The position numbers and the translations under genes were made by a program. DNA of 64,000 bases from NCBI RefSeq assembly GCF_011682045.1, contig NZ_VVIW01000019.1, forward strand, positions 1 to 64,000, read 5' to 3'. The notes below the pieces were generated by a model that was given only the letters and a program-made list of their open reading frames with translations, was not told where the DNA came from and ran no database searches. Position 1 is the stretch's first letter, and the number at the start of each line of letters is the position of its first letter. Below are positions 10,448 to 25,526 of the stretch, one piece after another. This DNA comes from Massilia aquatica. Its GTDB lineage: Bacteria; Pseudomonadota; Gammaproteobacteria; Burkholderiales; Burkholderiaceae_D.

Positions 10448-11881
10448 TTACCAGCCAATATCCTGCAACAAGGGAAAGGTCAGGTCATGCGGCGGCAGCA
10501 CATCGTGGGTCAGGTCGGGGTTGATGGACGGCTCCATCAACTGGTTCGGCTTGGTGTCGACCGAGTAGTGCGACACCGACGAGCCCGGCGAATATTCTTC
10601 CGGACTGTACATGCGCACGCGCCGCACCCAGTCGGTGCCCGCCAGTTTGTCGGGATCGACGCCCAGGCTGGCGACCACGCCCGACGAGGTGCGCGAGCGC
10701 CGGTACATCGCCGTCTTGAGCCGCTCGCCGGTGGCCTTGTCGATACGGACCGCCGGAATGCGCACGGCCGGGTCGCTGCCGCCCAGCGGGCTGACCGGAT
10801 CGTCGGTGTTTTCCACCACCACCATGCCGCGCGCTCCCGCATTCTGCAAGATGCGCGCCTTGGTCACGAAGGCGCAGGCGCCGCGGTCGACCAGGGCGAT
10901 ATTGCCGCGCACCGCCATCGCGTTGGCCGGACTGAGCGGAGTGCAGGCCAGGCCGCCGCCGTTGGCCTGGTCGATCAGCGGCATGAGTTCGCCCGTCACC
11001 GCGTTTTGCCCGAGTTGCGGGCCGAACGAGGCATCGCCCACCAGGTGCTTGCCGCCGCTTGTACCCGCCGCCATGCCGCTGATGAGCAGTTGCGGCTCGG
11101 GCGCGAGGATGCGCGCGGCGGCTTTGTAGACGCGCTCGCCGTTCCACGACAGGGTGGCGCCGCCGATGGCCGACAGGCGCCGCTCTTCATTTTTCATGTT
11201 GACCCAGGCTTTGTTGTTGCGGATGTCGACCAGGAAGTGATCCCAGATCGACGGCTTTTCGTCAAAGAATTCGCCGGTGCCTTCGTCGGTGAAGTTCTGG
11301 AAGCCGAGCCCGTGCCCCAGTTCGTGCAGCAGCACGGCCACCAGGTCGATCTGTTCGCCCGCCTTGCGGTCGAGCCCGAGGTAGAAGCCGGAGCCGGGCA
11401 GGCAGTCGGGGAACAGGCCGAGGCGCGAGTTGAAGCGCGCCCGGATATGCCCCCTGCCTTCCGAGGCCATGTCGGTTCTCGTCAGTTTGCTGGCCAGCGC
11501 ACCCGGATACCAGGTGTTGGCCTTGGGCGCCTTGGGAAAGTCGCGGAAGATTTCGATTGCGCCGGCCGAGCCGAGCACCGCGCCATCGGCCGTGCAGGCG
11601 AGCGGCTCGAACACGGCTTCCACCCTGATCGGAACCGGGCTCGTGAGCGTGCGGGCCCAGATGTCCGCCGCGTGCTGGAACGCAATGAGGCGTTGCTCGC
11701 CGAGCGTGCGGCCGTTGTTGCCGCCGACCGGCTGCGCCGGCGTGCGATCGTTGAAGCCGACATTGGGCGTGTTGAGGTTGACGATCGTGATCGTCGCCGC
11801 CGCGTGGGCGACGCCGATGGTGCAGCAGGCGAGGGCGAGGGCGGCGGCGGCGCGCCGCAGGAAGGTGGGCTTATTGCTCAT
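10448..11881 (-). CDS. Exported PA-domain zinc metalloprotease-like protein
   Basis: A 477-residue secreted protein with a signal peptide ending GVAHAA. A metalloprotease-like region carries HELGHGLGF, the HExxH zinc motif extended to HExxHxxGF, near residue 190. A PA-like insert follows (about residues 275-370: GNIALVDRGACAFVTKARILQNAGA), typical of exported peptidases. No C-terminal anchor is visible. It is the last gene of a minus-strand operon behind a PEP-CTERM protein and a post-PEP-CTERM-1-like protein, and its start overlaps the latter's end by 11 bases. The substrate is unknown; processing of, or co-secretion with, the operon's surface protein is an inference. Confidence 0.85.
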   Translation of the reverse strand: MSNKPTFLRRAAAALALACCTIGVAHAAATITIVNLNTPNVGFNDRTPAQPVGGNNGRTLGEQRLIAFQHAADIWARTLTSPVPIRVEAVFEPLACTADGAVLGSAGAIEIFRDFPKAPKANTWYPGALASKLTRTDMASEGRGHIRARFNSRLGLFPDCLPGSGFYLGLDRKAGEQIDLVAVLLHELGHGLGFQNFTDEGTGEFFDEKPSIWDHFLVDIRNNKAWVNMKNEERRLSAIGGATLSWNGERVYKAAARILAPEPQLLISGMAAGTSGGKHLVGDASFGPQLGQNAVTGELMPLIDQANGGGLACTPLSPANAMAVRGNIALVDRGACAFVTKARILQNAGARGMVVVENTDDPVSPLGGSDPAVRIPAVRIDKATGERLKTAMYRRSRTSSGVVASLGVDPDKLAGTDWVRRVRMYSPEEYSPGSSVSHYSVDTKPNQLMEPSINPDLTHDVLPPHDLTFPLLQDIGW

Positions 11882-12251
11882 TCTGGCGCCCCCCGGCTGG
11901 CGTGGCGACATCTTGATGGGCAGCATGCTGCGCGGCGTCTTCGCCTTCCACGCAGCGCTGCACCAGCTTGCCGTCCGGCGTGCGCGAGACCACGGAATAC
12001 ACCATGCCGCGCTCGCCGAGCAGCGCGCCGTGGGTGCCGTCGGCACGCACCGACACTTGCGGCTGCGGGCGCACCATGTGCGGTTGCGGCAGCTTGCCCT
12101 GCATGGCGCGCAGTTCGGCGGCGGTGGCCGGACGCAGTTGCCCGGTTTGCTTGTCGCGCACCACGGCCATGCCGGCGGATTGCTCTGCCGCCACGGCAGC
12201 CGTCGAGATGACGGCCAGCGCGCAACAGCTGATCAGGGTTTTACTCAACAT
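11871..12251 (-). CDS. Exported post-PEP-CTERM-1-like protein
   Basis: A 126-residue protein with a signal peptide (cleavage near AVAAEQ), then a stretch of the form VVRDKQTGQLRPATAAELRAM. This resembles the short domain that NCBI calls post-PEP-CTERM-1, found next to PEP-CTERM genes. It has a single cysteine in VQRCVEGED near the C-terminus. GGAG lies ten bases upstream of the ATG. It lies directly downstream of a PEP-CTERM gene and overlaps the metalloprotease start, so the three are probably co-transcribed. The function of this family is not established; the assignment is from memory of the motif. Confidence 0.72.
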   Translation of the reverse strand: MLSKTLISCCALAVISTAAVAAEQSAGMAVVRDKQTGQLRPATAAELRAMQGKLPQPHMVRPQPQVSVRADGTHGALLGERGMVYSVVSRTPDGKLVQRCVEGEDAAQHAAHQDVATPAGGRQNEQ

Positions 12252-12273
12252 ATCGGGATTCTCCTGGGTTGGT

Positions 12274-12936
12274 TCACGTTAGCTGCCTGCGGCGAAGCAA
12301 TACCAGGGCGCCCAGGCCGGCCAGCAGCATCAAATACGTGCCCGGTTCGGGCACCGTAGTAACTAAGACAGCGTCGATGCCGATATAGTTCGCCGCCGAT
12401 GCATCGCCGACGTAACGAAATGCGAATCGCCCCTGGCCGTTGTAGTCGATGCTGGAAATAACCTGCTGCCAGACAGTGGGATAGTCCGAGATGCCGCCCA
12501 GCACGCCGAGCACCGTGTTGAAGCCGCCGGTTTCGCTGCCCGTACCGGGGGAGAAGCGCACTTCGAGCGTATCGCCGAAGCCGCTGGCGCTGGCCGAGCG
12601 CGTGAAGAACGACAGTTCGCTGGGACCGATCAGGCTCACCACCGGCGTGATCAGCCAGTTGTCGACGCTGCCCATGCCGTTTTGCGCGCTCAGGTAATTG
12701 GCGGCGATGTAGGACGCGGCCGGGCCGGACGGGGCGGGGAAGACGCCGGGGTTGCCCTGCGACCAGGCCAGGCCCGGCGGCACGCTGTTGTTGACGAGAG
12801 ACCAGTTGTTGAGGCTGCCGATGTCGTTGAATTCTTCGTTGAGGACGACGATGGGGACGCTTGTCTGCGCGGCGGCGGGCAGCGCGGCGGCGATGGCGAT
12901 ACTGGCCATGGCAATCAGTTTGTGATGGAGTTTCAT
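12274..12936 (-). CDS. PEP-CTERM surface protein, choice-of-anchor J-like
   Basis: A 220-residue exported protein: signal peptide to about residue 23, then a beta-rich region starting LNEEFNDIGSLNNWSLVNN, like the choice-of-anchor J module. The C-terminal sorting signal is complete: VPEPGTYLMLLAGLGALVLL followed by RRRQ. PEP-CTERM tails are recognised by the EpsH/XrtB-type exosortase, which is not in this window. Such proteins are often linked to exopolysaccharide. It is the first gene of a three-gene minus operon; AAAGAG precedes the ATG. Confidence 0.88.
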   Translation of the reverse strand: MKLHHKLIAMASIAIAAALPAAAQTSVPIVVLNEEFNDIGSLNNWSLVNNSVPPGLAWSQGNPGVFPAPSGPAASYIAANYLSAQNGMGSVDNWLITPVVSLIGPSELSFFTRSASASGFGDTLEVRFSPGTGSETGGFNTVLGVLGGISDYPTVWQQVISSIDYNGQGRFAFRYVGDASAANYIGIDAVLVTTVPEPGTYLMLLAGLGALVLLRRRQLT

Positions 12937-13178
12937 GGTCGCTCTTTCAGCAATTGCCAGAAGGATGGCATGTCCACTCGCGCTGGCAGGCGCGAGGCCA
13001 CTGTTGACCCCATCATAGGAGTGGACGAAGCGCCGGCATTGATGTGCGCTTAATGAACAGGGGGCGTTTGCGGGCTATTCCGGGGAACTTATCTGACGAA
13101 GCGCGGCGAAGCTTGATGGAGCGAAAGAGGCGTACGAAAAAGGCGTCCCTGCGGGCACAGGGACGCCGCAAGGAACGA
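12937..13178. other. Gap between two minus-strand operons
   Basis: The left end holds the terminator of the importer operon (13136-13167). The rest must contain the promoter of the PEP-CTERM operon, but no box stands out by eye and no gene is supported. Confidence 0.4.
13136..13167 (-). terminator. Terminator of the importer operon
   Basis: A perfect 10-bp stem (13142-13151 with 13158-13167) with a six-base loop, next to a run of five A at 13137-13141 that becomes a T-tract on the minus strand. It lies 12 bases after the last permease gene and closes the seven-gene operon. Confidence 0.8.
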
Positions 13179-14261
13179 TCAGTGGGCGCCGGGGCGCGCG
13201 GCGATCCTGCGCAAACGCAGTTTGCCGACGATGCCGATCGGGAAGAAATAGATCGACAACACGAACAGCACGCCGAGCCACAGCATCCAGCGGTCCGGAT
13301 GCAGGGCCTCGGCCAGCAGCGGCACCCCTTCCAGCGCCGACGAGCCTTGCGCCATCAGCGACTTGAGGTAGTTCTGGGCAATGATGAACAAGGTCGCGCC
13401 CACCACCGCGCCGTACATGGTGCCCATGCCGCCGATCACCACGATCAGCAGGATGTCGGTCATGACCTCGAAGCCGAGCATGGTCTTGGGGCCGACGTAG
13501 CGCAGCCACAGCGCCATCAGCGCGCCGGCCAGCGCCGCCACCAGCGCCGCCAGCACATTCGCCCAGATGCGGTACAGCACGGTGCGGTAGCCGAGCGCCT
13601 CGGCGCGGAACTCGTTTTCGCGGATGGCTTGCAGCACCCGCCCGAACGGCGAATTGACCAGCCGCAGCAGGAACAGGAACAGCAGCAGGCAGCCGCCGAA
13701 CACGATGTAGTACGTGATCAGCTTGCCGTCGATGGCGCGCCCCAACACCTCGCTTTCAAACAGGCGAAAGCCCGGCGTGAGCAATGCCGGCACGCTGAAG
13801 GTCTTGCCGTCTTCGCCGCCGGTCAGGTCGGACAGTTGCGAGGCCAGCACGGCGAACGAGGCCGCCACCGCAAGCGTGATCATGGCGTAGAAGATGGCGC
13901 GCACGCGCAGCGCGAACAGGCCTACCACCAGCGCCAGCGCCAGGGTCAGCAGCAGGGCCAGGGCGACGCCGATCGCCATCGCGCCCCAGCTCGGTTCGCC
14001 ATGCGACAGTCCGAGCCCGACGCCATAGGCGCCGATGCCGAAAAACATGGTGTGGGCGAAGGAGACGATGCCGGTGTAACCGAGCAGCAAGTCGTAGGAG
14101 GCCACCAGCACGATGTAGACGCAGATGGTGGCGGCGGTGTTGAGCGGACGCGCGCCGCTGGTGATGAAAGGCGCCAGCGCCAGTCCCAGCAGGATCAGCA
14201 GCAGGGTGGCCGACAAGGCCCGGCTGCGCGGCATGTCGCCGGATAGCAATTGATTGAGCAT
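13179..14261 (-). CDS. Branched-chain-type ABC transporter permease, LivM-like
   Basis: A 360-residue polytopic inner-membrane protein with about nine hydrophobic segments, the LivM-family signature YDLLLGYTGIVSFAHTMFFG and a conserved GGMGTMYGAVVGA motif near the C-terminus. The start at 14261 (MLNQLLSG) is preferred because AAGGAAACTC precedes it. It ends the minus-strand operon with LivH-, LivF- and LivG-like proteins and a binding protein. The family moves branched-chain amino acids but also urea, amides and aromatic acids; the operon partners suggest the substrate here is not simply an amino acid. Confidence 0.9.
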   Translation of the reverse strand: MLNQLLSGDMPRSRALSATLLLILLGLALAPFITSGARPLNTAATICVYIVLVASYDLLLGYTGIVSFAHTMFFGIGAYGVGLGLSHGEPSWGAMAIGVALALLLTLALALVVGLFALRVRAIFYAMITLAVAASFAVLASQLSDLTGGEDGKTFSVPALLTPGFRLFESEVLGRAIDGKLITYYIVFGGCLLLFLFLLRLVNSPFGRVLQAIRENEFRAEALGYRTVLYRIWANVLAALVAALAGALMALWLRYVGPKTMLGFEVMTDILLIVVIGGMGTMYGAVVGATLFIIAQNYLKSLMAQGSSALEGVPLLAEALHPDRWMLWLGVLFVLSIYFFPIGIVGKLRLRRIAARPGAH

Positions 14262-14269
14262 GAGTTTCC

Positions 14270-15349
14270 TTAGCGGCGCAGGTTGGAATACAGGCCGGCC
14301 GGGCGCCACAGCAGGATGGCGATCATCAGGACGATGTTCGACACCAGCGCGAACTTGGGCAGCAGGAAGCCGGCGTAATTGGCCACCAGCGCCATCAGCA
14401 GCGCGCCGATGAAGCAGCCGCCGACCGAGCCCAGGCCGCCGATGATGATGACGATAAAGATCATCACCATCATCTCGCCGCCCATGGCCGCGTTCAGGGT
14501 TTCCTTGTACAGGCCCCAGAGCACGCCGCCCAGGCCTGCCAGCGCCGAGCCGGCCGCGAACACGGCCACGAACAGGCGCCGGATGCGGTAGCCCATGGCT
14601 TCCACCATTTCGCGGTTTTCGACGCCGGCGCGGATCAAGAGGCCGACCTTGGTGCGGTTGAGTACGAGGAACATGGCGACGAACACCACGAGGCCGATCA
14701 CGACCGCCACCAGCCGGTATTTTTCGACCGCCGCGTCGCCCAGCAGCACCGCGCCGCGCAGGCTGGCCGGCAGCGGCAGGGGAATCTGCTCGGCGCCCCA
14801 GATCACGCTGATCAGTTGCTCGGCCACGATCATGCCGCCCATGGTGATCAGGATCTGCTTGAGATGCTGGCCGTACACGGGCGCAATGATGATGCGCTCA
14901 AAGGCCCAGCCGAGCAGCGCCGTGGCAAGCATGGCCACCGTGATCGCCAGGGCCAGCACGCCCAGGTTGATCAGCAGGGAATCGACCTCGAGCCAGCCGC
15001 GCATGGGAATGAGGACCATGGTGGCGGCGTAGGCGCCGACCGACACGAAGGCGCCATGGCCGAAGTTGAGCACGTCCATCAGCCCGAACACGAGCGTCAG
15101 GCCGCTGGCCATGATAAAGATCATCATGCCCATCGCCAGGCCGGCGATGCTCAAGGTGACCCAGGTGGGAAAGCTGCCGACCAGCGGCAGCATGAGCAGG
15201 ATCAGGGCCGGCACCAGCAGCAGCGGCGCGAGGTCGCGCTCAGCTGCCGGCAAGGGCGTGTCGTTCGGTGCGGCCGGGTTGGCGGGCAGGGCCGTGGCCG
15301 CGCTCACCGGAGGCGATTTGGTGGTCACGTGCTTGGTCTCCGTGTTCAT
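14270..15349 (-). CDS. Branched-chain-type ABC transporter permease, LivH-like
   Basis: A 359-residue permease. The N-terminal ~45 residues are a hydrophilic Ala/Pro/Thr-rich extension not usual for LivH. The core follows with GLTLVFGLMDVLNFGHGAF and IIIGGLGSVGGCFIGALL, the family hallmarks. The start at 15349 overlaps the stop of the upstream ATPase gene by one base. The frame is open for another 188 codons upstream, but that part is a shadow of the ATPase gene. Confidence 0.9.
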   Translation of the reverse strand: MNTETKHVTTKSPPVSAATALPANPAAPNDTPLPAAERDLAPLLLVPALILLMLPLVGSFPTWVTLSIAGLAMGMMIFIMASGLTLVFGLMDVLNFGHGAFVSVGAYAATMVLIPMRGWLEVDSLLINLGVLALAITVAMLATALLGWAFERIIIAPVYGQHLKQILITMGGMIVAEQLISVIWGAEQIPLPLPASLRGAVLLGDAAVEKYRLVAVVIGLVVFVAMFLVLNRTKVGLLIRAGVENREMVEAMGYRIRRLFVAVFAAGSALAGLGGVLWGLYKETLNAAMGGEMMVMIFIVIIIGGLGSVGGCFIGALLMALVANYAGFLLPKFALVSNIVLMIAILLWRPAGLYSNLRR

Positions 15350-16074
15350 TATTGATGTGCGCTCAGCGAAAGCCCGAGCAGGCGTTGCTGCAAGTTGTCG
15401 TCCTCGACCAGTTCGCGCATGGCGCCGGCGTGCACCACCTTGCCGTCGTCCATCACCGAGACCGTGTCGCCCAGGTGCTTGACGAAGCTGAAGTTCTGCT
15501 CGACCAGCAAAATGGTGGTGTCGGTCTGCTTGAGTTCGCGGAAGGCGGCGATCAGGCTCTGGATAATGGCCGGGGCCAGGCCCTTGGTCGGCTCGTCGAT
15601 CAGGATCAGCTTGCGCGGCTCGACGATGGCGCGGGCGATCGCCACCATCTGCTTTTGCCCGCCAGACAAATTGCCGGCCGGGTAGTGCCAGAATTTGCGC
15701 AGCGCCGGAAAGAAGCCGAAGATCCATTCCACGCGCGCTTCGCTGAGCGGCCCGTTGCGCGCGGCCAGATACAGGTTTTCGCGCACGGTCAGGTCGGAAA
15801 ACACGGCCATCGATTCGGGCACGTAGGCAATGCCGAGCTGGGCGATGTCGGGCGTGGGCAGGGCGGTGATGTCGTGGCCGTCGAAGCGCACCGTGCCGGC
15901 GGAGGCTTTCCATAGCCCCATGATGGTGCGCAAGGTGGTAGTCTTGCCGGCTCCGTTGCGGCCCAGCAGCACCGACAGGCCGCCGCGCGGCACGGTCAGG
16001 TCGACCCCTTGCAGGATGTGGTATTCCCCGATGTGGGTGTGGACCCCGCTGAGTTGAAGGATTGGATCAGACAT
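15349..16074 (-). CDS. ABC transporter ATP-binding protein, LivF-like
   Basis: A 241-residue ATPase with Walker A GRNGAGKTTT, signature LSGGQKQMVAIARA, Walker B ILIDEPTKGLAP and a switch histidine region (TTILLVEQNFSF). The start MSDPILQL at 16074 is favoured over an in-frame codon five residues upstream because it gives the normal N-terminus. The gene overlaps the LivG-like gene by eight bases and the LivH-like gene by one, indicating strong translational coupling. Confidence 0.92.
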   Translation of the reverse strand: MSDPILQLSGVHTHIGEYHILQGVDLTVPRGGLSVLLGRNGAGKTTTLRTIMGLWKASAGTVRFDGHDITALPTPDIAQLGIAYVPESMAVFSDLTVRENLYLAARNGPLSEARVEWIFGFFPALRKFWHYPAGNLSGGQKQMVAIARAIVEPRKLILIDEPTKGLAPAIIQSLIAAFRELKQTDTTILLVEQNFSFVKHLGDTVSVMDDGKVVHAGAMRELVEDDNLQQRLLGLSLSAHQ

Positions 16075-16837
16075 GCTCGGGCGTCCCAAGGTAAGCTTCT
16101 TGCACGATGGCCGAGGCCATCACCTCGGCCGGATTGCCGTCGGCCACCAGGGTACCGTTGTGCAAGACGATGATGCGGTCGGCCAGCGAGCGCACCACGT
16201 CCATCTTGTGTTCGACCAGCAAAATCGTCTTGTTGCGCTCGGCCTTGACCTGGTGGATCAGGTCGAGCACGACCGGCACTTCGTCCACGCTCATGCCGGC
16301 GGTCGGTTCGTCGAACATCATCACGGCCGGCTCCAGGGCCAGCAGGATCGCCACTTCCAGCTTGCGCTTGTCGCCGTGCGAGAGGGCCGCCACGCGCGTA
16401 TCGCGCCGGCTGGCCATGGAGACGCGTTCGAGGTAATAGTCGGCGCGCACGATCAGGTCCTGGTGGCTGGACCATCTTGAAAACATGTTCATGCCGGTGC
16501 CTGCGCGGCTTTGCACCGCCAGGCGCACGTTTTCGGCCACCGTGAGCAGCGGAAACAGGTTGGTCAGCTGGAAGGCGCGCCCGATGCCGAGCGCGGTGCG
16601 TTTGGCCGCACCGAAGCGGGTGATGTCGGCGCCGTCGAGCAGCACCGTGCCCGAGGTGGCCGGCAACTGGCCCGACATCAGGTTGAAGTAGGTCGTCTTG
16701 CCGGCGCCGTTGGGGCCGACGATCACGGTCAGGGTGCCGGGATAGAAGTCGGCGCTGACCTGGTTGACCGCCACGTGCCCGCCGAAGCGAATGCTCAGCT
16801 TGCGCGTGGACAGCGACGGCATGGCCGCCGGCGTCAT
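16067..16837 (-). CDS. ABC transporter ATP-binding protein, LivG-like
   Basis: A 256-residue ATPase with Walker A GPNGAGKTTYF, the LivG-type insert after the Q loop, and Walker B VMMFDEPTAGMS. The signature helix reads ALSHGDKRKLEVAILLA, where SHGDKRKLE replaces the usual LSxGxQR form; this variant is common in LivG proteins of this transporter class. The ATG overlaps the binding-protein stop as ATGA. Confidence 0.92.
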   Translation of the reverse strand: MTPAAMPSLSTRKLSIRFGGHVAVNQVSADFYPGTLTVIVGPNGAGKTTYFNLMSGQLPATSGTVLLDGADITRFGAAKRTALGIGRAFQLTNLFPLLTVAENVRLAVQSRAGTGMNMFSRWSSHQDLIVRADYYLERVSMASRRDTRVAALSHGDKRKLEVAILLALEPAVMMFDEPTAGMSVDEVPVVLDLIHQVKAERNKTILLVEHKMDVVRSLADRIIVLHNGTLVADGNPAEVMASAIVQEAYLGTPEHV

Positions 16838-18027
16838 CGCTTGTTCCTCACCGGCAGCGGCAATTCGCTGGCCGGGATTTCGCGCACCAGTTCCAGCAAG
16901 TCCCACTCGTTCTTTTGATCCTTCTTGATCTTGAAGTGGTACATCGACTGCAGCGCCTGGTGGTCTTCCTTGCGGAAGGTCATCTTGCCCTTGGGCGTCT
17001 CGAAATCCATGCCTTCCATGGCGGCGATCAGTTTTTCGGTGTCGCCCGAGTTGGCGCGGGTCAACGCGGTGACGACCGCGCTGGCCGCCGCGAAGCCGCC
17101 GGCGGTGAACATGTCGGGCGGGCCCTTGAAACGCTTGCTGTGTTCGGCCACGAACCAGTCGTTCATTTTGTTCTTCGGAAAACCGTGGTAGTAGTAGATG
17201 GTGCCCTGGGTGCCGGCGAAGTTCTTCCAGGTTTTCATCACCGGCAGGATGTTCCCGCCCGGCGACAGGATGACGCCGTAGCGCTCGGGCTTCATGTCGG
17301 CCAGCTTGTTCATCGGATTCGGGCCGGCCCAGACGATTTGCAAGAGGCGCGGTTCGGGCTTGTTTTTCAGGGCGTCGAAGATGCGCTGGGCCGGGGCCGT
17401 GAAGTCGCTGGTGCTCTGGGGCGCGTATTCCTCGTGCACCACCTGGGCCTTGCTGCCGGTAGCCGTCAGCGCTTCGCGGCCGGCCTTGACCGCATCCTTG
17501 CCGAAGGCGTAATCCTGCGCCAGGAAGGCCACACTGCCGGCCTTGAGCGTGCTGGCGGCGGCCAGCGCATCCTGCATCGAACTGCGCGCGGTGCGGAAGA
17601 TATAGCGATTCCATTTGTCGCCGGTGATGGCGTCGGCTACGGCCGGTTCGATGATCAGGATTTTCTTGTATTCCTGCGCCACCGGCAGCATGGCGATGGC
17701 CGAGCCCGACGAAGTGGTGCCGACCGCAATGTCGGCCTTGTCGTCGCCGTAGGCTTCGGCCAGCAGGGTGCGGCCCAGGTCGGGCTTGCTCTGGTCGTCC
17801 TTGACGATCACCTTGAGCTTACGGCCGTTGATTTCCATCTTGCCGCCAGTGAGGTACTCAAGGCCCATCATGAAGCCGGTTTCGGTTTCCTTGGCATAGG
17901 TTTCCAGAATGCCGGTCTTGCCGGCGATGAGGGCGATTTTCAGGTCGGCCGCGGCCAGCGCGGGCGTTGCCAGGGTGGTCGCCAAGGTGGCCAGGACGGC
18001 GGCTGCCAGGGTGTTGAATTTGTACAT
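16834..18027 (-). CDS. ABC transporter periplasmic binding protein (Peripla_BP_6)
   Basis: A 397-residue type-I periplasmic binding protein with a signal peptide ending TPALAAADL. The mature part starts LKIALIAGKTGILETYAKETETG and continues with the two-lobed Leu/Ile/Val-binding fold (IAVGTTSSGSAIAMLPVAQEY; FTAGGFAAASAVV). Relatives bind amino acids, amides or aromatic carboxylates; the ligand cannot be read from the sequence. It lies 57 bases downstream of the hydrolase gene and overlaps the LivG-like gene, so it is probably co-transcribed with the receptor and hydrolase. Confidence 0.9.
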   Translation of the reverse strand: MYKFNTLAAAVLATLATTLATPALAAADLKIALIAGKTGILETYAKETETGFMMGLEYLTGGKMEINGRKLKVIVKDDQSKPDLGRTLLAEAYGDDKADIAVGTTSSGSAIAMLPVAQEYKKILIIEPAVADAITGDKWNRYIFRTARSSMQDALAAASTLKAGSVAFLAQDYAFGKDAVKAGREALTATGSKAQVVHEEYAPQSTSDFTAPAQRIFDALKNKPEPRLLQIVWAGPNPMNKLADMKPERYGVILSPGGNILPVMKTWKNFAGTQGTIYYYHGFPKNKMNDWFVAEHSKRFKGPPDMFTAGGFAAASAVVTALTRANSGDTEKLIAAMEGMDFETPKGKMTFRKEDHQALQSMYHFKIKKDQKNEWDLLELVREIPASELPLPVRNKR

Positions 18028-18084
18028 CGTGTCTCCTCTTGGGATGGCTGTTTTATGTATTTATATGGTGCGGCTTGAATTGCT

Positions 18085-19032
18085 TCAGTCGACCTGCGCC
18101 AGGAAGCGTTCGATCGCCTGCCGCGCCGGCGCTTCGGTCAGCATCGGCGCGTGGCCCACGCCGGGCACTTCGGCGTACTGCATGCCTGGGGCGGCGCGCT
18201 GCATGTAACTGGCCTGTTCCGGCTCGACCAGGTCCGACAGGCTGCCGCGCACCAGCAAGGTGGGGCGGTTGCGCGCCAGGCGCCGGAACGCCATGCGCGA
18301 AGTCAACGACGACGGTTTGAGCTTGCCGTTTTGCAGGGGCAGGGCGATGTTCGGGTCGTAGCGCAGCACCAGGTGGCCGGCATCGTTTTCGCTGAAGGCG
18401 CGGCGCGCCCACTTGTTCCATTCGGCCATGTCGTTCGATGGAAAGGCCGGCTGGTTGATGTCGCGCATGTACTCGGCCGCCTGTTCCCAGGTCAGCATGG
18501 TGGCGCCCTTGCCGGCGTAGGTGGCGATGCGCGACAGGCCTTTTTGCGAGATCACCGGGCCGACGTCGTTGAGGATGGCGGCGGCGATGAGTTTCAGGCG
18601 CCGTAGCGCCAGGGTCATGGTGATGATGCCGCCCATCGAGGTGCCGACGAACACGGCGCGCTCGATGCCCAGGTCGTGCGCCAGCTTGATCACGTCGCCG
18701 GCGTACACCGCCGGGTTGTAGTGGGCCGGGTCGGGGTCGCGCGCCGAGTGGCCGCGCCCGCGCACGTCGAGCGCCAGCACGCGCCGCCCCAGGCTGGCGA
18801 TCCATGGCGCCAGTTCGTCGAAGTCGCCCGAGTTGCGCGTCAGCCCGTGGATGCAGATGACGGGCAGGCGCGCGCGCCCGCCGTGGCCGGGATAGTCGCG
18901 CGCGTACAGGGTCAGGCCATCGTCGCTGAGGTAGCTGACATCGTTGAATTGCCGGGCCACTTGCGCTTCGTTGGCGGCCGGGGGAAAGTGGGCGGCGTGG
19001 ACGCCATCGTGTTCATGCACCGAAACTCCCAT
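18085..19032 (-). CDS. Alpha/beta-fold hydrolase
   Basis: A 315-residue alpha/beta hydrolase with a complete triad by eye: Ser 132 in the elbow GTSMGG, an acid in GSLSDLVEP (Asp 267) and His 294 in VPGVGHAPM. The oxyanion-region motif ICIHGLTRNS is present near residue 61. There is no signal peptide, so it should act in the cytoplasm. It starts two bases after the TonB-dependent receptor gene and precedes the ABC importer genes, which suggests it cleaves the imported compound, such as an ester, lactone or C-C bond (inference). Confidence 0.88.
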   Translation of the reverse strand: MGVSVHEHDGVHAAHFPPAANEAQVARQFNDVSYLSDDGLTLYARDYPGHGGRARLPVICIHGLTRNSGDFDELAPWIASLGRRVLALDVRGRGHSARDPDPAHYNPAVYAGDVIKLAHDLGIERAVFVGTSMGGIITMTLALRRLKLIAAAILNDVGPVISQKGLSRIATYAGKGATMLTWEQAAEYMRDINQPAFPSNDMAEWNKWARRAFSENDAGHLVLRYDPNIALPLQNGKLKPSSLTSRMAFRRLARNRPTLLVRGSLSDLVEPEQASYMQRAAPGMQYAEVPGVGHAPMLTEAPARQAIERFLAQVD

Positions 19033-19034
19033 GT

Positions 19035-21341
19035 TCAGAACCGGTATTCGAGGGTGGCCGAGACGGTGCGCGGGGCGCCGTAAAAGGCCGTCAGCACGCC
19101 TTCCCTGCCGAGGTTCGGAAAGACGTAGCCCCCGGTGCGATAGCGTTTGTCGCCCAGGTTCTTGCCGTGCAGGCCGGCGCGGATCTTGCTGTCTGCGCTG
19201 GTCCAGGTCAGGCTCAGGTCGTACAGGGTGTAGCCCGGCTGGTCGAGCACCGAGACGTATTCGAACTGGCTGGTGTCGTCCTTGTAGGAGGCGCTGCCGC
19301 TGATGCTGGCGGTGCCGCTGCGGCCCATCATCGGCAGGGCAATGTCGTAAGTGGCGCGCAGGTTGGCCGAGTTCTTCGGCGTGTTCTGGAAAAAGCGCTC
19401 GCCGGCCACGTTGACCAGCGCCGGCACGCCGCCCACCAGTTGCGAGGTCAGGAACTGGGTGTATTCGGCCTTGATGTGGCTAAGCATGCCGGTCACGCTC
19501 AGGGCATTGCTCAGCTTCGCGCTCGCCTCGATTTCGACGCCGCGGATCTTGGCCTTGCCGGCGTTGGTGGTCACGCCGGCGAAGCTGTCGGGGCGGCCGT
19601 CGTTGTTGGTGTCGACCTCCACCGAACCGGGAATCTGCACATCCTTGTACTTGCTGTCGAACAGGGCGATGTTGGTCAGGATGCGGTTGTTGTTATAAGA
19701 CGACTTGAGGCCGAGTTCGAGCGTGTCGATGGTTTCGGGCAGGTAGCCGGCGCGCGCGGTGGCGTCGCTGATTTTGGTGCCGACCACGTTCATGCGCGGA
19801 TCGAAACCGCCGCCCTTGAAGCCGCGCGCCCAGCTGGCGTAGATGTTCTGGTTGGCGCTGGCCTTGTAGGCCATGCCGACCTTGGGCGTGAACTTCTTGT
19901 CTTCGCGTTCCAGTTCGCCATGGGTGAAGTCGGTGTCGGTGCGGAACAGCACGGCGTTGGCGTTGCCCATTCCCGGCGAGCCGTTCAGGCCCAGGTAGAT
20001 CTGGCGCAGGATGCTCGCTTCGCGCTTGTCGACCGTGTAGCGCCCGCCCAGCGAGAAGCTGAGCGCCTCGTTGTATTTATAGTTGGCGTCGGCGAACACG
20101 GCCCAGGCCTTGGTGTCGATATCGCCCAGGGTGTAGGTCGAACTGGGGAACGCACCGGCCAGCACGGTGTCGAAGATGTTGAAGGCGTTGGCGTCGATGT
20201 AGTACACGCCGGCCACGCCCTGGACCTTGTCGCCGGTGTAGGTGAGCTGGAATTCCTGGCTGAACTGTTTGTTCTTGTACAGCGCGGGCACTTCGAAGTC
20301 GACCACCGGCAGCGAGTCGAAGTCGATCGGCGCGTACGACTTGTCGCGGCGCGAGGCGGTGACCGACTTGACGCTCAGTTGCGGGCTGAGGGTGTATTCC
20401 AGCAGCGCCGACCAGCCATGGGCGCTGACCTCCTGCTCCTGCCCGAGCGCGCGGGTCAGGTTGGCGCGCGTGTCGAACACGTTCTCCAGGATCGGCGCGC
20501 CGCTGGTGCGCCCGACCGTCACCCGGTGGCCGTTGCGCGGGCTCGAATCGTCTTGGGTGGCGTCGGCCGCGAGGCGGATGAACAGTTCGGGTGTGGGCGT
20601 CAATTCCGCCGACAGGCGCCCGGCGGTCATGTCCTTGTCGTAGTTGGGGGCGCCGGTAACCAGGTTGCGCCCGTAGCCGTCGCGCTTGAAGCGGGCCACC
20701 GAGCCGCCCACGCGTACCGTTTCAGACAAGGGCGTGCTGGCCGTGAGCACCGCTTCGCGCTGCTTGTAGTCGCCCAGCGTGACGCGGCCGCGGATATCGG
20801 TCCTGGAGCCGAGTTTGCGCGTAACGTACTTGACCGCGCCGCCGATGGTGTTGCGGCCGTACAGGGTGCCTTGCGGGCCGCGCAGCACTTCGATGCGCTC
20901 GACGTCGTAGATGTCGGTCACGGCTGCCTGCGGGCGGGCCAGGTAAATATCGTCGAGGTAGATGCCGACGCCGGCTTCGAAGCCGGCCAGCGGGTCTTGC
21001 TGGCCGACGCCGCGAATGAAGGCGGTCAGGGTCGAATTGGTGGCGCGCGAGGCTTTCAGGGTGGTGTTCGGAATCGACAGGGCGAGGGCGGTAATGTCGG
21101 GCGTGCCCTGCTTGGAGAGCTGGTCGCCGCCGAACGCGGTGACGGAAACTGGCACGTCCTGCAGGTTTTCGGGGCGGCGGCGGGCGCTGACGGTGACCAC
21201 GCCGGCATCCTGGATGGTGTCGGCGGCCGGAGCGCCCGACGCGGTCTGCGCCTGCGCCGGGCCCAGCGCGCCACCGGACAGTACCAGCACGGCGCAGGCT
21301 ATACGATGTAGGGGAAAGTGTCGAACGGTGGTCATGCGCAT
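19035..21341 (-). CDS. TonB-dependent outer-membrane receptor
   Basis: A 768-residue receptor: signal peptide to AQAQ (about residue 32), plug domain with VVTVSARRRPENLQDVPVSV and VLRGPQGTLYGRNTIGGAV, then a 22-strand-type barrel ending in a terminal aromatic (LEYRF). No N-terminal STN signalling domain is present, so cell-surface sigma-factor signalling is not expected. The ATG at 21341 follows AGGAGA. The plug sequence resembles receptors that take up organic molecules rather than classic siderophore receptors, but ligand prediction from sequence is weak. It is the first gene of the seven-gene operon. Confidence 0.93.
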   Translation of the reverse strand: MRMTTVRHFPLHRIACAVLVLSGGALGPAQAQTASGAPAADTIQDAGVVTVSARRRPENLQDVPVSVTAFGGDQLSKQGTPDITALALSIPNTTLKASRATNSTLTAFIRGVGQQDPLAGFEAGVGIYLDDIYLARPQAAVTDIYDVERIEVLRGPQGTLYGRNTIGGAVKYVTRKLGSRTDIRGRVTLGDYKQREAVLTASTPLSETVRVGGSVARFKRDGYGRNLVTGAPNYDKDMTAGRLSAELTPTPELFIRLAADATQDDSSPRNGHRVTVGRTSGAPILENVFDTRANLTRALGQEQEVSAHGWSALLEYTLSPQLSVKSVTASRRDKSYAPIDFDSLPVVDFEVPALYKNKQFSQEFQLTYTGDKVQGVAGVYYIDANAFNIFDTVLAGAFPSSTYTLGDIDTKAWAVFADANYKYNEALSFSLGGRYTVDKREASILRQIYLGLNGSPGMGNANAVLFRTDTDFTHGELEREDKKFTPKVGMAYKASANQNIYASWARGFKGGGFDPRMNVVGTKISDATARAGYLPETIDTLELGLKSSYNNNRILTNIALFDSKYKDVQIPGSVEVDTNNDGRPDSFAGVTTNAGKAKIRGVEIEASAKLSNALSVTGMLSHIKAEYTQFLTSQLVGGVPALVNVAGERFFQNTPKNSANLRATYDIALPMMGRSGTASISGSASYKDDTSQFEYVSVLDQPGYTLYDLSLTWTSADSKIRAGLHGKNLGDKRYRTGGYVFPNLGREGVLTAFYGAPRTVSATLEYRF

Positions 21342-21427
21342 GGTGTTTGTCTCCTGGAATTTTTTTGGACAATGCGGTAAGCCGGAAATGAAGCCTTGCA
21401 GTGTGCCCCGATTCGAATTTGCGCGAA

Positions 21428-21456
21428 AGATAACGAAACGCCCAAGCACTGTGCAA
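21428..21456 (-). promoter_or_regulatory. Sigma70-like promoter of the receptor operon
   Basis: On the minus strand TTGCAC (plus 21451-21456) and TTATCT (plus 21428-21433) are separated by exactly 17 bases, about 85 bases upstream of the receptor ATG. The -35 box lies inside the inverted repeat at 21450-21465, so a protein bound there would compete with or contact RNA polymerase. Confidence 0.5.
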
Positions 21457-21465
21457 AAATGCACA
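21450..21465. promoter_or_regulatory. Putative operator copy 1, TGTGCA-N4-TGCACA
   Basis: Perfect dyad TGTGCAAAAATGCACA, flanked by a further matching A-C / G-T pair at 21448-21467. It shares both half-sites and spacing with the copy at 21562-21577, and it overlaps the predicted -35 box of the receptor operon. Confidence 0.6.
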
Positions 21466-21561
21466 GTAGTGATTTTTGCAACTTATCGTTTTCGCAGCAG
21501 CGCGTTCCAGCGCGAGTTTGCGTTTTATCAATACATAAAAATCAAAAGATTGCGCGCGCGG

Positions 21562-21577
21562 TGTGCACTGGTGCACA
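21562..21577. promoter_or_regulatory. Putative operator copy 2, TGTGCA-N4-TGCACA
   Basis: Perfect dyad TGTGCACTGGTGCACA, ending 31 bases before the LysR start codon. Centre-to-centre distance to copy 1 is 112 bp, which would allow looping. A third, different dyad (TATTCAC-G-GTGAATA) follows at 21579-21593, close to the lysR start. Confidence 0.6.
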
Positions 21578-21608
21578 ATATTCACGGTGAATAACAGACA
21601 TTGTTTCC

Positions 21609-22523
21609 ATGAATACCTTGCCTGAGTGGACAGACCTGCGTTTCTTCCTGGAGCTGGCGCGCGCCGGTACCTTGTCCGGTGCGTCGCGCCGGCTGGGGGT
21701 CGAACACACGACCGTGGCGCGCCGCATCGACCGGCTCGAAATCCAGCTCGGCACCACCTTGTTCGACCGCAGCCGCGAGGGATACGAGCTGACCGAGATG
21801 GGCCAGGCGCTGTTGCCGCATGCCGAAGCGATGGAAAGCGCGGCGCTGGCCGCCACCGAGCAGCTGGGCGGCACCGAAGTGGCGGCGCACGGCGTGGTGC
21901 GGCTGGGCGTGCCGGAAGTGTTCGGCGTGCGCGTGGTGGCGCCGCTGCTGGTGGGGCTGCTGCAGACGCATCCGGACCTGAGCATCGACCTGCTGGTACT
22001 GCCGCGCTTTGCCAACCTGGCCAACCGCGAGGCCGATCTGGGCGTGATGCTCGATCCGCCCAGCACCGGGCGCTACATGATCACGCGGCTGGCGTCGTTC
22101 CGTTTCTATCTGTACGCGTCGCCCGCGTACCTGGCGCGCCATCCGCCGATCCGCGAGCACGCCGATCTGGCGCGCCACGATTTTGTCGATTATGTGCAGG
22201 ACCGGCTGGCCAGCCGCGAGCTCAGTTATCTCAACGAATTGGGGTTCACGCCGAGGCGCAGGCTGTGCTGCACCGGGATGACCGCGCAGGTGGAGGCGGC
22301 GGCGCTGGGAATGGGCTTGATCATGGCGCCGCCGTATGCGGTGCCGGACGACGGGCGGCTGGTGCCGGTGCTGGACCAGTTTTTCGCGGAGCGCTCGTTC
22401 TGGCTGGCTGCGCCGACCGATTTGTACCGCTTGCAGCGGGTCAGGGCGGTGTGGAATTTGCTCAGGGAGTATTCGGACCGGCAGCCGTCCTTGTTTGTGC
22501 ATGGGCGGGAGGAGCGGCGGTGA
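21609..22523 (+). CDS. LysR-family transcriptional regulator
   Basis: A 304-residue LysR regulator with an N-terminal winged HTH (LRFFLELARAGTLSGASRRLG and TTVARRIDRLEIQLG, about residues 9-46) and an effector-binding domain starting near residue 90 (GVVRLGVPEVFG). It is divergent from the receptor/hydrolase/importer operon across a 267-base region carrying two identical dyads, the usual arrangement for a regulator of its neighbours. The inducer is probably the imported compound or its hydrolysis product (inference). Confidence 0.92.
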   Translation: MNTLPEWTDLRFFLELARAGTLSGASRRLGVEHTTVARRIDRLEIQLGTTLFDRSREGYELTEMGQALLPHAEAMESAALAATEQLGGTEVAAHGVVRLGVPEVFGVRVVAPLLVGLLQTHPDLSIDLLVLPRFANLANREADLGVMLDPPSTGRYMITRLASFRFYLYASPAYLARHPPIREHADLARHDFVDYVQDRLASRELSYLNELGFTPRRRLCCTGMTAQVEAAALGMGLIMAPPYAVPDDGRLVPVLDQFFAERSFWLAAPTDLYRLQRVRAVWNLLREYSDRQPSLFVHGREERR

Positions 22524-22600
22524 TCTTTAGGAGGGAAGCATGATCAGGAAAAATGCCCAGCAGGCGGGGAAGCGTGAGATTGCTTGCTGCTGACTTTATG

Positions 22601-22633
22601 CCCGTCGTTCCTGCCACCGGCAGAAACGACGGG
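22601..22633. terminator. Bidirectional hairpin between convergent genes
   Basis: A stem of CCCGTCGTT (22601-22609) with AACGACGGG (22625-22633) extended by CTGCC/GGCAG across one mismatch, with a three-base loop. It sits between the LysR gene and the convergent large unknown gene. Confidence 0.65.
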
Positions 22634-22664
22634 TTGTATCAGCTAAGAGAACGCACTACTGGAC

Positions 22665-25526
22665 TCAGGCCTCCGGGCTATCGTCAATCAACACCGGTGG
22701 CACCAGGATGTATTCCGCCTGGTCGGCCGGCTGCGCCAGCTTGGGAAACGCGATGTCGGTCCCGTCATCGAGCACCGTCAGCATGGTCGGCACGCGATAG
22801 GTCCAGGCGGCGCCTTCGGGCGAACCTTCCATCGGCGTATTCTGGTTGACCAGCCGCACTTCGCGGTTCAGATCGGCCAGCACGCGGTCGGCCGGCACCA
22901 CGGCGATGTCCGACACGATCCCGGTCTGCAGGTACAGCGCGGCCGCGTCTTCATACCCCTGGCGCACCGGCAGGATCACCGACGCGAACCCGGCGTTCAG
23001 GAACGCCGTGAACACGCTGTCTCCCTGCGGCTCGAAGCGCGACGCGGCCCACTGCTGCGCACCCTCGCTCCAGAAGTACGGGAAGAAGGTGTACGTCACC
23101 TGATCCCACTCGAAAGCGTACTCGAAGAAGCGCACTTCGCGCGCCGCCTGCTCCAGGCGCTCCGGCGCGATGGCCGGTGCGCTGCCGATCACGATGGCCG
23201 AAGGCGGCGCGGCCTGTCCACTGCCGCTGCGTACGATTTCCAGCACCGCGCGTTTGAGTTCGGTGCGTTCGATGGTGCGCATCTGTTCTTCGCTCAGCGC
23301 TGCGGACGCATCGTCTTCTTCAACGCGCGCCGCCAGCAGGGCGCGGTGCTGTTTCAGGTCGGCCTCGTATTGGTCGTTGATGATCTGGAGGCATTCCAGC
23401 TGCCACTTCTCGAGCGCGATCTTGGTGCGGGCCCAGACCAGGTAGAAGTTGACCGTGAACTGGTCGAGCTGGCCCCAGCCGCTGGCGTTGTAGCTGACCG
23501 CGCCGCTGTTGGTGCCGATGGCCTGCGCCGCAATCGGCGTGGCGCCGGCCGGGCTGCTCGAAAACAGCCTGGTGCCGACGCTGGCGGTAATGCCGGACTG
23601 GTTGTCGACGCCGTACCAGGTCATCGACACGCCGGCCGCCGCCGCCGCATAGCCCTGTTCCAGCGCGCGCGGCGAGTTGAACACGCCGCTCAGGGCGGTG
23701 CCGCCGGCGCCGCCGCCCGGATAGGTCAGGCTGGCGTATTCGGTGATGGCGGCCGTCGGCGGCGGCGGCAGGGTCACGTTGAAGCGGTCGGCGATGGCCA
23801 GCCAGGTGGCGTCGGTGATGTCGGCCGGACGCAGGACCGGCTTGACCGGGGCCGGGCCGGCGTGCCCGCCAAAGCCGGGCTGCTGGGCCAGCAGGTGGCG
23901 GAACATGGCAGCCGGCGCCGGCACCATCACTTCGTACATGGCGCGCGCACCGTAGGTGAACACCTGCGCCTGGTACACCTTGTCGACCCAGCGGTACTGG
24001 GCGCGCACGGTGGCCGCCGGCGCGCTGTGGCGCACCACGTCGCTTTCGTAGACTTCGGCGCTGCGGGTGCGGAAGCGCTGCCGTCCGACCCGTTGGCGCA
24101 CCAGGGCGACGGCGCGGTCGATGATCTCGCGCGCCTGGCGCAGGTCGGCGCCGCGCGACTGGTCGCCGCCGTTCGAGTTGTTCATGAAGGTCGAGGCCTG
24201 GGCGTTGACGGTACCGTAGTTGGAGGTCAGGTTGATGCTGGCGTTGCGGTCCTGCTGCTTGCGCGCCGTCTCGAAGGCCGACTGGCCCATGTCGAAGCGC
24301 TCGAAGCCGGTTTGTTCCTGCGAGACTTCGGCGTCGCCGTCGTCGTAGTTGCCGGTGCTTTCGTCGGCGCGGCTCAGGCGCGAGTGAAAGTGCTCGTGCT
24401 CTTCACCTTGCAGGACGTTGTGGATGTTGGCCAGCTCGCCTTTTTCGTAGCCTACCAGTACCTGGCGCACCACGCGCAGGTCGGCCACGCCGACCGGACG
24501 GATGCCGAACTTCATGGTCGGGATGGCGCCCGGCTTGAACGCGGGAACGGCGGGAATCAGCGCGCCGAGTTCCGGAATGGCGGCTAGCACGGCTGCCGAG
24601 GCGGGGCCGCCCGCGGGTGTGGCGGCGGCGCTCGCGACGCCGCTGGCAATCCGGCGCCGCACCTCGTCGAGCAGGTCGAAGGTGCTCTGGTTGGTGGTGG
24701 GGACGCTGGCGTCGGCCAGCTCCTGCATCAGGTTGGCGTTGTCGGCGCGGAACTGCTGGTCGATGTCGGCCGCTGGCTGGGTGCGGAACACTTTTTGCAG
24801 TTCCGAGGGGCCGCCGGTGCCGGGCATGCCGGGCGCGTGCGGGCCGCCGGCGGTCATCTGATCGAGTGCGGCGACGAGGCGCCGTTCCAGCTGGACCAGG
24901 GTGTCGATCTGCTTGAGCAGGTCGGCGAGGATCCGGTCCTGCTCGTCGGCGGTGTTGTCGCCGGCCGCGTTTTGCTCGGCGCCTTGCTGTTCGCGGCGCA
25001 GGCGCATCTGTTCTTCGAATGCGGCCGGCAGGGCGATGGCGGGATTGAGGGCGGCCTGCACCGATTCCGGCGACAGGGCGGCCTGGTCGCCAGCGAGGAT
25101 TTTTTGCAGCAGGGTGACTTGCCCCAGCAACTGCTGGGCACGCTGCAACTGGGCGCTGCTGGCTTTGCCGGAGGCGATCCCTTGCAGGTAGTAACGCCAC
25201 AAGGCGGTTTGCAAGGCGGGGACGTCGCCCACCACGTTTTGGGCGATCGGGAACAGGGTCTCGGCGGCCAGGGTCAGCTGGCCCTGGCGCGCGGCCTCCA
25301 GGTCGGCCGCGATGGCCTCGGGCGTGCGCTTGACCAGCGCGCTCCAGTGCGCGCTCAGGATGTCCAGCTCAGCGGTGAAGTCCAGCTCGGCGGCGGAGCC
25401 GATCCATGCGGCGACGTTCGATTGGTCCGGCAGTTCGAGGAGTCCTGCTTGCGCCGGCGTCGGGTTGGGCGCCCTGGTGGTGGCGAAGCGGAACAGTTCC
25501 TCGGCATTGGCGGTAGCTTGCGTCAT
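22665..25526 (-). CDS. Large conserved protein of unknown function (953 residues)
   Basis: I cannot assign a function. No signal peptide or membrane helix is visible. The N-terminal third is helical and Gln/Ala-rich with coiled-coil segments (about residues 50-230). The central part has a charged stretch (LQGEEHEHFHSRLSRADES, about residues 370-388) and a beta/helical region. A striking motif follows near residues 510-530: YRWVDKVYQAQVFTYGARAM then EVMVPAPAA. The C-terminal part has aromatic-rich segments (FEWDQVTYTFFPYFW; ILPVRQGYEDAA). From memory this pattern recurs in large uncharacterised proteins of unrelated bacteria. The ATG at 25526 follows GGGAGAT. The gene appears to stand alone. 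Confidence 0.85.
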   Translation of the reverse strand: MTQATANAEELFRFATTRAPNPTPAQAGLLELPDQSNVAAWIGSAAELDFTAELDILSAHWSALVKRTPEAIAADLEAARQGQLTLAAETLFPIAQNVVGDVPALQTALWRYYLQGIASGKASSAQLQRAQQLLGQVTLLQKILAGDQAALSPESVQAALNPAIALPAAFEEQMRLRREQQGAEQNAAGDNTADEQDRILADLLKQIDTLVQLERRLVAALDQMTAGGPHAPGMPGTGGPSELQKVFRTQPAADIDQQFRADNANLMQELADASVPTTNQSTFDLLDEVRRRIASGVASAAATPAGGPASAAVLAAIPELGALIPAVPAFKPGAIPTMKFGIRPVGVADLRVVRQVLVGYEKGELANIHNVLQGEEHEHFHSRLSRADESTGNYDDGDAEVSQEQTGFERFDMGQSAFETARKQQDRNASINLTSNYGTVNAQASTFMNNSNGGDQSRGADLRQAREIIDRAVALVRQRVGRQRFRTRSAEVYESDVVRHSAPAATVRAQYRWVDKVYQAQVFTYGARAMYEVMVPAPAAMFRHLLAQQPGFGGHAGPAPVKPVLRPADITDATWLAIADRFNVTLPPPPTAAITEYASLTYPGGGAGGTALSGVFNSPRALEQGYAAAAAGVSMTWYGVDNQSGITASVGTRLFSSSPAGATPIAAQAIGTNSGAVSYNASGWGQLDQFTVNFYLVWARTKIALEKWQLECLQIINDQYEADLKQHRALLAARVEEDDASAALSEEQMRTIERTELKRAVLEIVRSGSGQAAPPSAIVIGSAPAIAPERLEQAAREVRFFEYAFEWDQVTYTFFPYFWSEGAQQWAASRFEPQGDSVFTAFLNAGFASVILPVRQGYEDAAALYLQTGIVSDIAVVPADRVLADLNREVRLVNQNTPMEGSPEGAAWTYRVPTMLTVLDDGTDIAFPKLAQPADQAEYILVPPVLIDDSPEA

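Follow-up and report, generated by a model that had tools for sequence, protein, structure and literature searches.

Results

The window examined here is a stretch of 64,000 nucleotides from Massilia aquatica (positions 1 to 64,000 of contig NZ_VVIW01000019.1 in assembly GCF_011682045.1; contig C10 of the 7.47-Mb genome G000 in our set), and our subject is an operon of seven minus-strand genes (21341-13179) that it carries. All seven are open by open-reading-frame check and Pfam comparison, in the order given by an initial annotation made from the sequence alone. A TonB-dependent receptor of 768 amino acids (19035-21341; plug PF07715 and beta-barrel PF00593) is followed by an alpha/beta hydrolase of 315 amino acids (18085-19032) and a periplasmic binding protein of 397 amino acids (16834-18027; PF13458, Peripla_BP_6). 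Then come a LivG-type ATPase (16067-16837; PF00005 and PF12399), a LivF-type ATPase (15349-16074; PF00005) and two permeases with PF02653 (BPD_transp_2), LivH-type (14270-15349) and LivM-type (13179-14261). Every match named here, and the Pfam match of the hydrolase, exceeds its cut-off, and all five parts of a Liv/HAAT-type ATP-binding cassette (ABC) importer are thus present.

From receptor to LivM the intergenic distances are 2, 57, -4, -8, -1 and 8 bases. A terminator-like hairpin on the minus strand (13142-13167; 11 pairs, eight of them G-C, then TTTTT) ends the unit, and the scan found no terminator-like site in the intergenic gaps and no sigma-70-like promoter in 12000-24500. A LysR-type regulator (21609-22523, plus strand; PF00126 and PF03466 over cut-off) diverges from the receptor. 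Gene calls, Pfam matches, gaps and overlaps, and the hairpin bear out the original description of one minus-strand unit with one terminator and a divergent LysR gene; since related genomes keep the identical order, the arrangement is not chance. The ATG at 21341 is better placed as the receptor start than the longest-frame start at 21464, because AGGAGA precedes it.

The pattern TGTGCA-N4-TGCACA, a putative operator, occurs in exactly two exact copies in the whole genome, both between LysR and receptor: at 21450-21465, 108 bp upstream of the receptor start, and at 21562-21577, 31 bp upstream of the LysR start (neither is assigned a strand). The reversed control pattern has no copies in the genome. 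With up to two mismatches the window holds four sites against 3.66 expected, so weight is put on the exact sites.

The closest structure to the hydrolase model (mean predicted local distance difference test score, pLDDT, 90) is PDB 3bwx (template modelling score 0.84, 39% identity). By sequence and fold 3bwx and 4ose are its nearest solved relatives, and their names state no function beyond hydrolase; beyond them the fold search gave general hydrolases and esterases only. The triad Ser132-Asp267-His294 is invariant in 34/34 aligned proteins, and no signal peptide is visible. The binding protein lies close to PDB 3n0x (E 1.3e-151), which with 3nnd is its nearest solved relative; both are named only as possible substrate binding proteins. 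Assignment as a branched-chain amino-acid importer was rejected on the NCBIfam Liv cut-offs, all missed (binding protein 59.2 of 477 bits, LivF 161.6 of 441, LivG 176.7 of 362), as was assignment as a urea importer (UrtA 62.9 of 492.75, UrtE 219.1 of 285.8, UrtD 207.6 of 304.1). The receptor scores 143.7 bits against the 223.5 set for siderophore receptors (TIGR01783), and that assignment was rejected too. By eye, none of 21 aligned members of the binding-protein family has an acidic counterpart to LivK E226, which we take to be the acidic contact for the ligand amino group, and the window's protein keeps the LivK serine that presumably contacts the carboxylate.

Relatives with the same locus that carry names are mostly Massilia. 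We call loci type A where the binding protein is at least 77% identical to the window's, and type B where it is 49-65% identical. A hydrolase-based scan gave 27 loci; 26 carry LysR, receptor, hydrolase and binding protein, and their importer genes continue as far as the contigs extend; the other (L051, Phenylobacterium) is a hydrolase alone. Among 294 genomes of the family (Oxalobacteraceae) the hydrolase (E <=1e-50) occurs in 70, a close binding protein in 71 and both in 67. The type-A loci read in detail number 49 records, or 46 distinct loci once the duplicates L087, L088 and L133 are removed; contig ends cut L034, L037 and L127. Binding protein and LivG are found in all 49 records, the receptor in 48, LivF, LivH and LivM in 47 each, and hydrolase and LysR in 45 each; by distinct locus the receptor is present in 45/46 and the hydrolase in 42/46. 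The co-occurrence of receptor, hydrolase and Liv importer that the initial annotation suggested looking for is therefore found, in 46 distinct loci, and it is nearly certain that the three form one conserved, co-regulated unit. In L124-L126 LysR and hydrolase are missing and the receptor runs directly into the binding protein. These loci belong to one genus (G124, G222 and G196, respectively) in which LysR, hydrolase and putative operator were lost together, and they offer a natural test of the hydrolase's purpose. Most operon genes of L052 (Massilia sp. H-1, complete genome) are split over several frames, probably through poor base quality of the assembly.

The putative operator follows the operon closely. 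An exact copy precedes the receptor in 45/45 type-A records with LysR (42/42 distinct), the nearest lying 102-114 bp upstream of the receptor start in 26/45 and 78-335 bp in the others; it is absent from L124-L127 and from 34/34 type-B loci. Eight distinct loci (L036, L040-L043, L097-L099) have the receptor, of another subfamily (50-52% identity to the window's), apart from the hydrolase and importer, with LysR beside the hydrolase. Seven of these have a copy upstream of the receptor as well as one between LysR and hydrolase, and L042 has an exact copy at the receptor only. In L046-L050 an exact copy lies upstream of the receptor and none beside LysR. The exact pattern is present in 26 of 77 genomes of the family: each of the 14 operon-bearing genomes has it (32 sites), as do 12 of the 63 that lack the operon (13 sites); 28 of the 32 sites lie at the operon, contig C392 of G094 being counted there by assumption. 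Three of the four others are identical in sequence and come from one genus (L205; G065:C5:250101; G100:C47:30217). The L205 site lies between priA-like and hemE-like genes, and this three-genome group was set aside. The fourth, in G094, lies 236 bp upstream of the ATG of a secreted depolymerase of polyhydroxybutyrate (PHB). LysR presumably binds this palindrome.

Enzymes that degrade PHB, a storage polyester of wide occurrence that is also marketed as a biodegradable plastic, recur beside the importer. In nine genomes of six genera (G527, G488, G646, G798, G917, G761, G922, G914, G975) the binding protein has a type-2 extracellular PHB depolymerase beside it on the same strand; of 30 loci surveyed from the family of G527, 7 show this. 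The eight type-2 enzymes scanned exceed the NCBIfam cut-off, as does that of G922. A PF10605 hydrolase of 3-hydroxybutyrate (3HB) oligomers follows the permeases in G595, G527 and G477, at 1025-1093 bits against a cut-off of 27; PF10605 is matched in 3/34 type-B loci and in none of the type-A loci examined. In G527 (L113) the binding protein, the PHB depolymerase, LivGFHM, the 3HB-oligomer hydrolase and a further hydrolase of the same kind as the window's stand in a single row. Type-A loci have such neighbours too. L100 continues on the same strand into a type-1 depolymerase and PhaZ7 (560 vs 450 bits; E 3.6e-190 to the solved PhaZ7), an enzyme over cut-off in 0/17 genomes of the genus, and L098 has a type-2 depolymerase about 2.4 kb before the receptor. 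The clusters of L046-L050 include a coenzyme A (CoA) ligase and a MaoC hydratase, and those of L040, L041 and L043 a FabG-like reductase.

Type-B binding proteins occur in other genera of the window's family and, across the phylum sample, in 21 more genomes (23/397 counting G000 and G031); in another Burkholderiales family, that of G527, 163/299 genomes have a member of the binding-protein family. Of the 34 type-B loci, 31 or 32 carry Liv genes, 12 a sigma-54 activator and six an acyl-CoA ligase at least 44% identical to that of L112; none has a receptor. In 13/34 a hydrolase adjoins LivM; its best solved relatives are again 3bwx and 4ose, and it differs from the window's in position and in its divergent form. 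The initial annotation had held that homologous importers always found without the receptor and clearly tied to amino-acid use would speak against a joint system: the type-B importers do stand without the receptor, and no tie to amino-acid use was seen. Beside the distant importers of L107-L111, all from one genus, stand genes for a GGDEF/EAL protein and a PAS-like sensor as well as a cytochrome P450/short-chain dehydrogenase (SDR)/luciferase-like gene set.

Depolymerases also lie elsewhere in the operon genomes. The window genome has four type-1 matches over cut-off, the best-scoring leaderless. The third, on contig C19, is a protein of 577 amino acids with a signal-like N-terminus, a catalytic domain, an fn3 domain and a C-terminal stretch that other depolymerases read also have, and a one-mismatch operator lies 196 bp upstream of its ATG; under a simple base-composition model the chance of such a site in 300 bp is 4e-4. 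The G094 depolymerase with the exact site is its orthologue (68% identity). That case came from reading the off-operon sites, and the C19 site was sought afterwards. No such site accompanies the more distant depolymerases of L141 and of L100, where the gene lies inside the operon. Type-1 or type-2 matches occur in 73/74 operon genomes and 143/220 others, a comparison confounded by kinship, and type 2 alone shows no difference (29/74 vs 82/220). Genome-level co-occurrence is given little weight, because of that kinship, the null result for type 2 and the leaderless esterases that the type-1 model catches, the best-scoring match of the window genome among them.

Discussion

We propose, with a probability of about 0.68 and on the strength of sequence and gene neighbourhood, that the window holds a LysR-controlled uptake operon for 3HB oligomers derived from PHB. 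The substrate is suggested by what lies beside the importer, namely PHB depolymerases, a 3HB-oligomer hydrolase, acyl-CoA ligases, a MaoC hydratase and a FabG-like reductase. That the operon is linked to PHB breakdown at all we hold with high confidence, raised by the presence of PF10605 enzymes within importer clusters. We infer the substrate, the size of molecule carried across each layer and the reaction of the hydrolase. A secreted depolymerase would cut PHB to oligomers, which the TonB receptor would take through the outer membrane. The binding protein would then catch them and the LivGFHM-type ABC importer move them across the inner membrane, where the cytoplasmic hydrolase would cleave their ester bonds to give 3HB, to be oxidised or joined to CoA. 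That the oligomers are carried whole, through the receptor as well, is probable. The initial annotation had a compound imported whole and then cleaved, and this stands as the most economical reading of the conserved unit. Its substrate class of aromatic esters, lactones, amides or plant phenolics does not, the neighbours being PHB-degrading and 3HB-related genes.

Several observations weigh against the proposal. The window's own operon holds no depolymerase and no 3HB-oligomer hydrolase, and its alpha/beta hydrolase falls far short of the NF050089 cut-off for intracellular polyhydroxyalkanoate (PHA) depolymerases (35.4 vs 300 bits). L124-L126 keep receptor and importer though the hydrolase is gone. 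T-N11-A is a motif of LysR proteins, and by eye the operator core shows none. The operator, with at most one mismatch, precedes 0/40 depolymerase regions in operon genomes and 0/20 controls, where the 40 regions, drawn from about 60 listed type-1 matches, mostly represent each genome's best-scoring match and not the secreted C19-type subfamily. Lastly, the PF10605 enzyme of the type-B clusters has, by eye, a lipoprotein-like leader; oligomers may there be cut before the inner membrane, and those importers may carry monomer or dimer.

This last point leads to the main rival, that the importer takes only monomeric 3HB or some similar short hydroxy acid, oligomers being cut outside the inner membrane. 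The hydrolase would then act on dimers or on another ester, and the receptor would bring in oligomers for periplasmic cleavage or some other ligand altogether. Liv-type binding proteins take small ligands, which counts towards this alternative, as do the leader-bearing PF10605 enzyme, which would yield monomer or dimer, and the lack of a receptor in every type-B locus. Against it, a signal-less hydrolase accompanies the importer in type A and in 13/34 type-B loci, which suggests that esters reach the cytoplasm, and PF10605 goes unmatched in the type-A loci examined; we regard monomer-only import as unlikely, if well short of negligible.

Import and hydrolysis of aromatic esters, lactones or plant phenolics would fit the general esterases that rank next below 3bwx and 4ose in the fold search, and the weaker PDB matches of the binding protein include 4ey3 and 4evq, which we take to be aromatic-acid binders. 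Against this, the clusters read showed no recognisable aromatic-pathway gene and the recurring partners degrade PHB, so that such a substrate is very improbable. Slightly less credible still is an ordinary branched-chain amino-acid or urea importer beside an unrelated receptor and hydrolase. The importer does belong to the same superfamily as Liv and Urt, and E. coli LivJ/LivK-LivHMGF has the same inner-membrane gene complement as the window's operon. The E. coli binding proteins, however, are only about 20% identical to the window's, whose family lacks the acidic ammonium-binding residue, and the E. coli locus, in the stretch read, has neither receptor nor hydrolase. All the Liv, Urt and siderophore-receptor cut-offs given above are missed, and receptor and importer share the operator even where they are separated.

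Among the closest likenesses to the proposed uptake of PHB oligomers are the TonB-linked polysaccharide utilisation loci, for example those for alginate, where a receptor, an inner-membrane importer and degrading enzymes stand under one regulator and are fed by a secreted depolymerase. The window's operon differs from these in its proposed polyester substrate, its Liv-type importer with its own binding protein, and its cytoplasmic cleaving enzyme. It is somewhat more probable than otherwise that receptor, importer, cytoplasmic hydrolase and secreted depolymerase under one LysR operator make up a polyester counterpart of such loci. Type-1 and type-2 depolymerases, PhaZ7 and the PF10605 enzyme are known for cutting PHB, whereas the role proposed here is uptake of the products. 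Uptake of 3HB has likewise been proposed for HbuT of Bacillus subtilis, named as a presumed 3HB transporter in one report (PMC8000602); its host has a single membrane, and the likeness drawn is one of proposed task. The available part of a review names no proven transporter for uptake of PHB fragments.

Searches of the open-access literature turned up no report of such an operon, nor of a TonB receptor that handles PHB oligomers. The component families are known; their union and its link to PHB were not found in those searches. If the proposal holds, polyester oligomers have an uptake route of their own across both membranes, with a TonB receptor recruited for those of PHB. A binding-protein family usually labelled as amino-acid transport thereby gains a hypothetical substrate, and the operon supplies receptor, importer, hydrolase, regulator and putative operator for testing together.

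One genus (G042, G071, G089; loci L131, L141 and L172-L176) stands out for its copy numbers. It has between two and four copies of the binding protein, not all of them accompanied by Liv genes, together with as many as seven type-2 and eight type-1 depolymerase matches, and is possibly a PHB specialist. In L141 (G071) four depolymerase stretches lie close to a binding protein that lacks Liv genes. Downstream of the window operon's terminator, on the minus strand, lie genes for a PEP-CTERM-like protein (12274-12936) and a peptidase-like protein (10448-12046), which recur beside 22/49 and 25/49 type-A loci, respectively.

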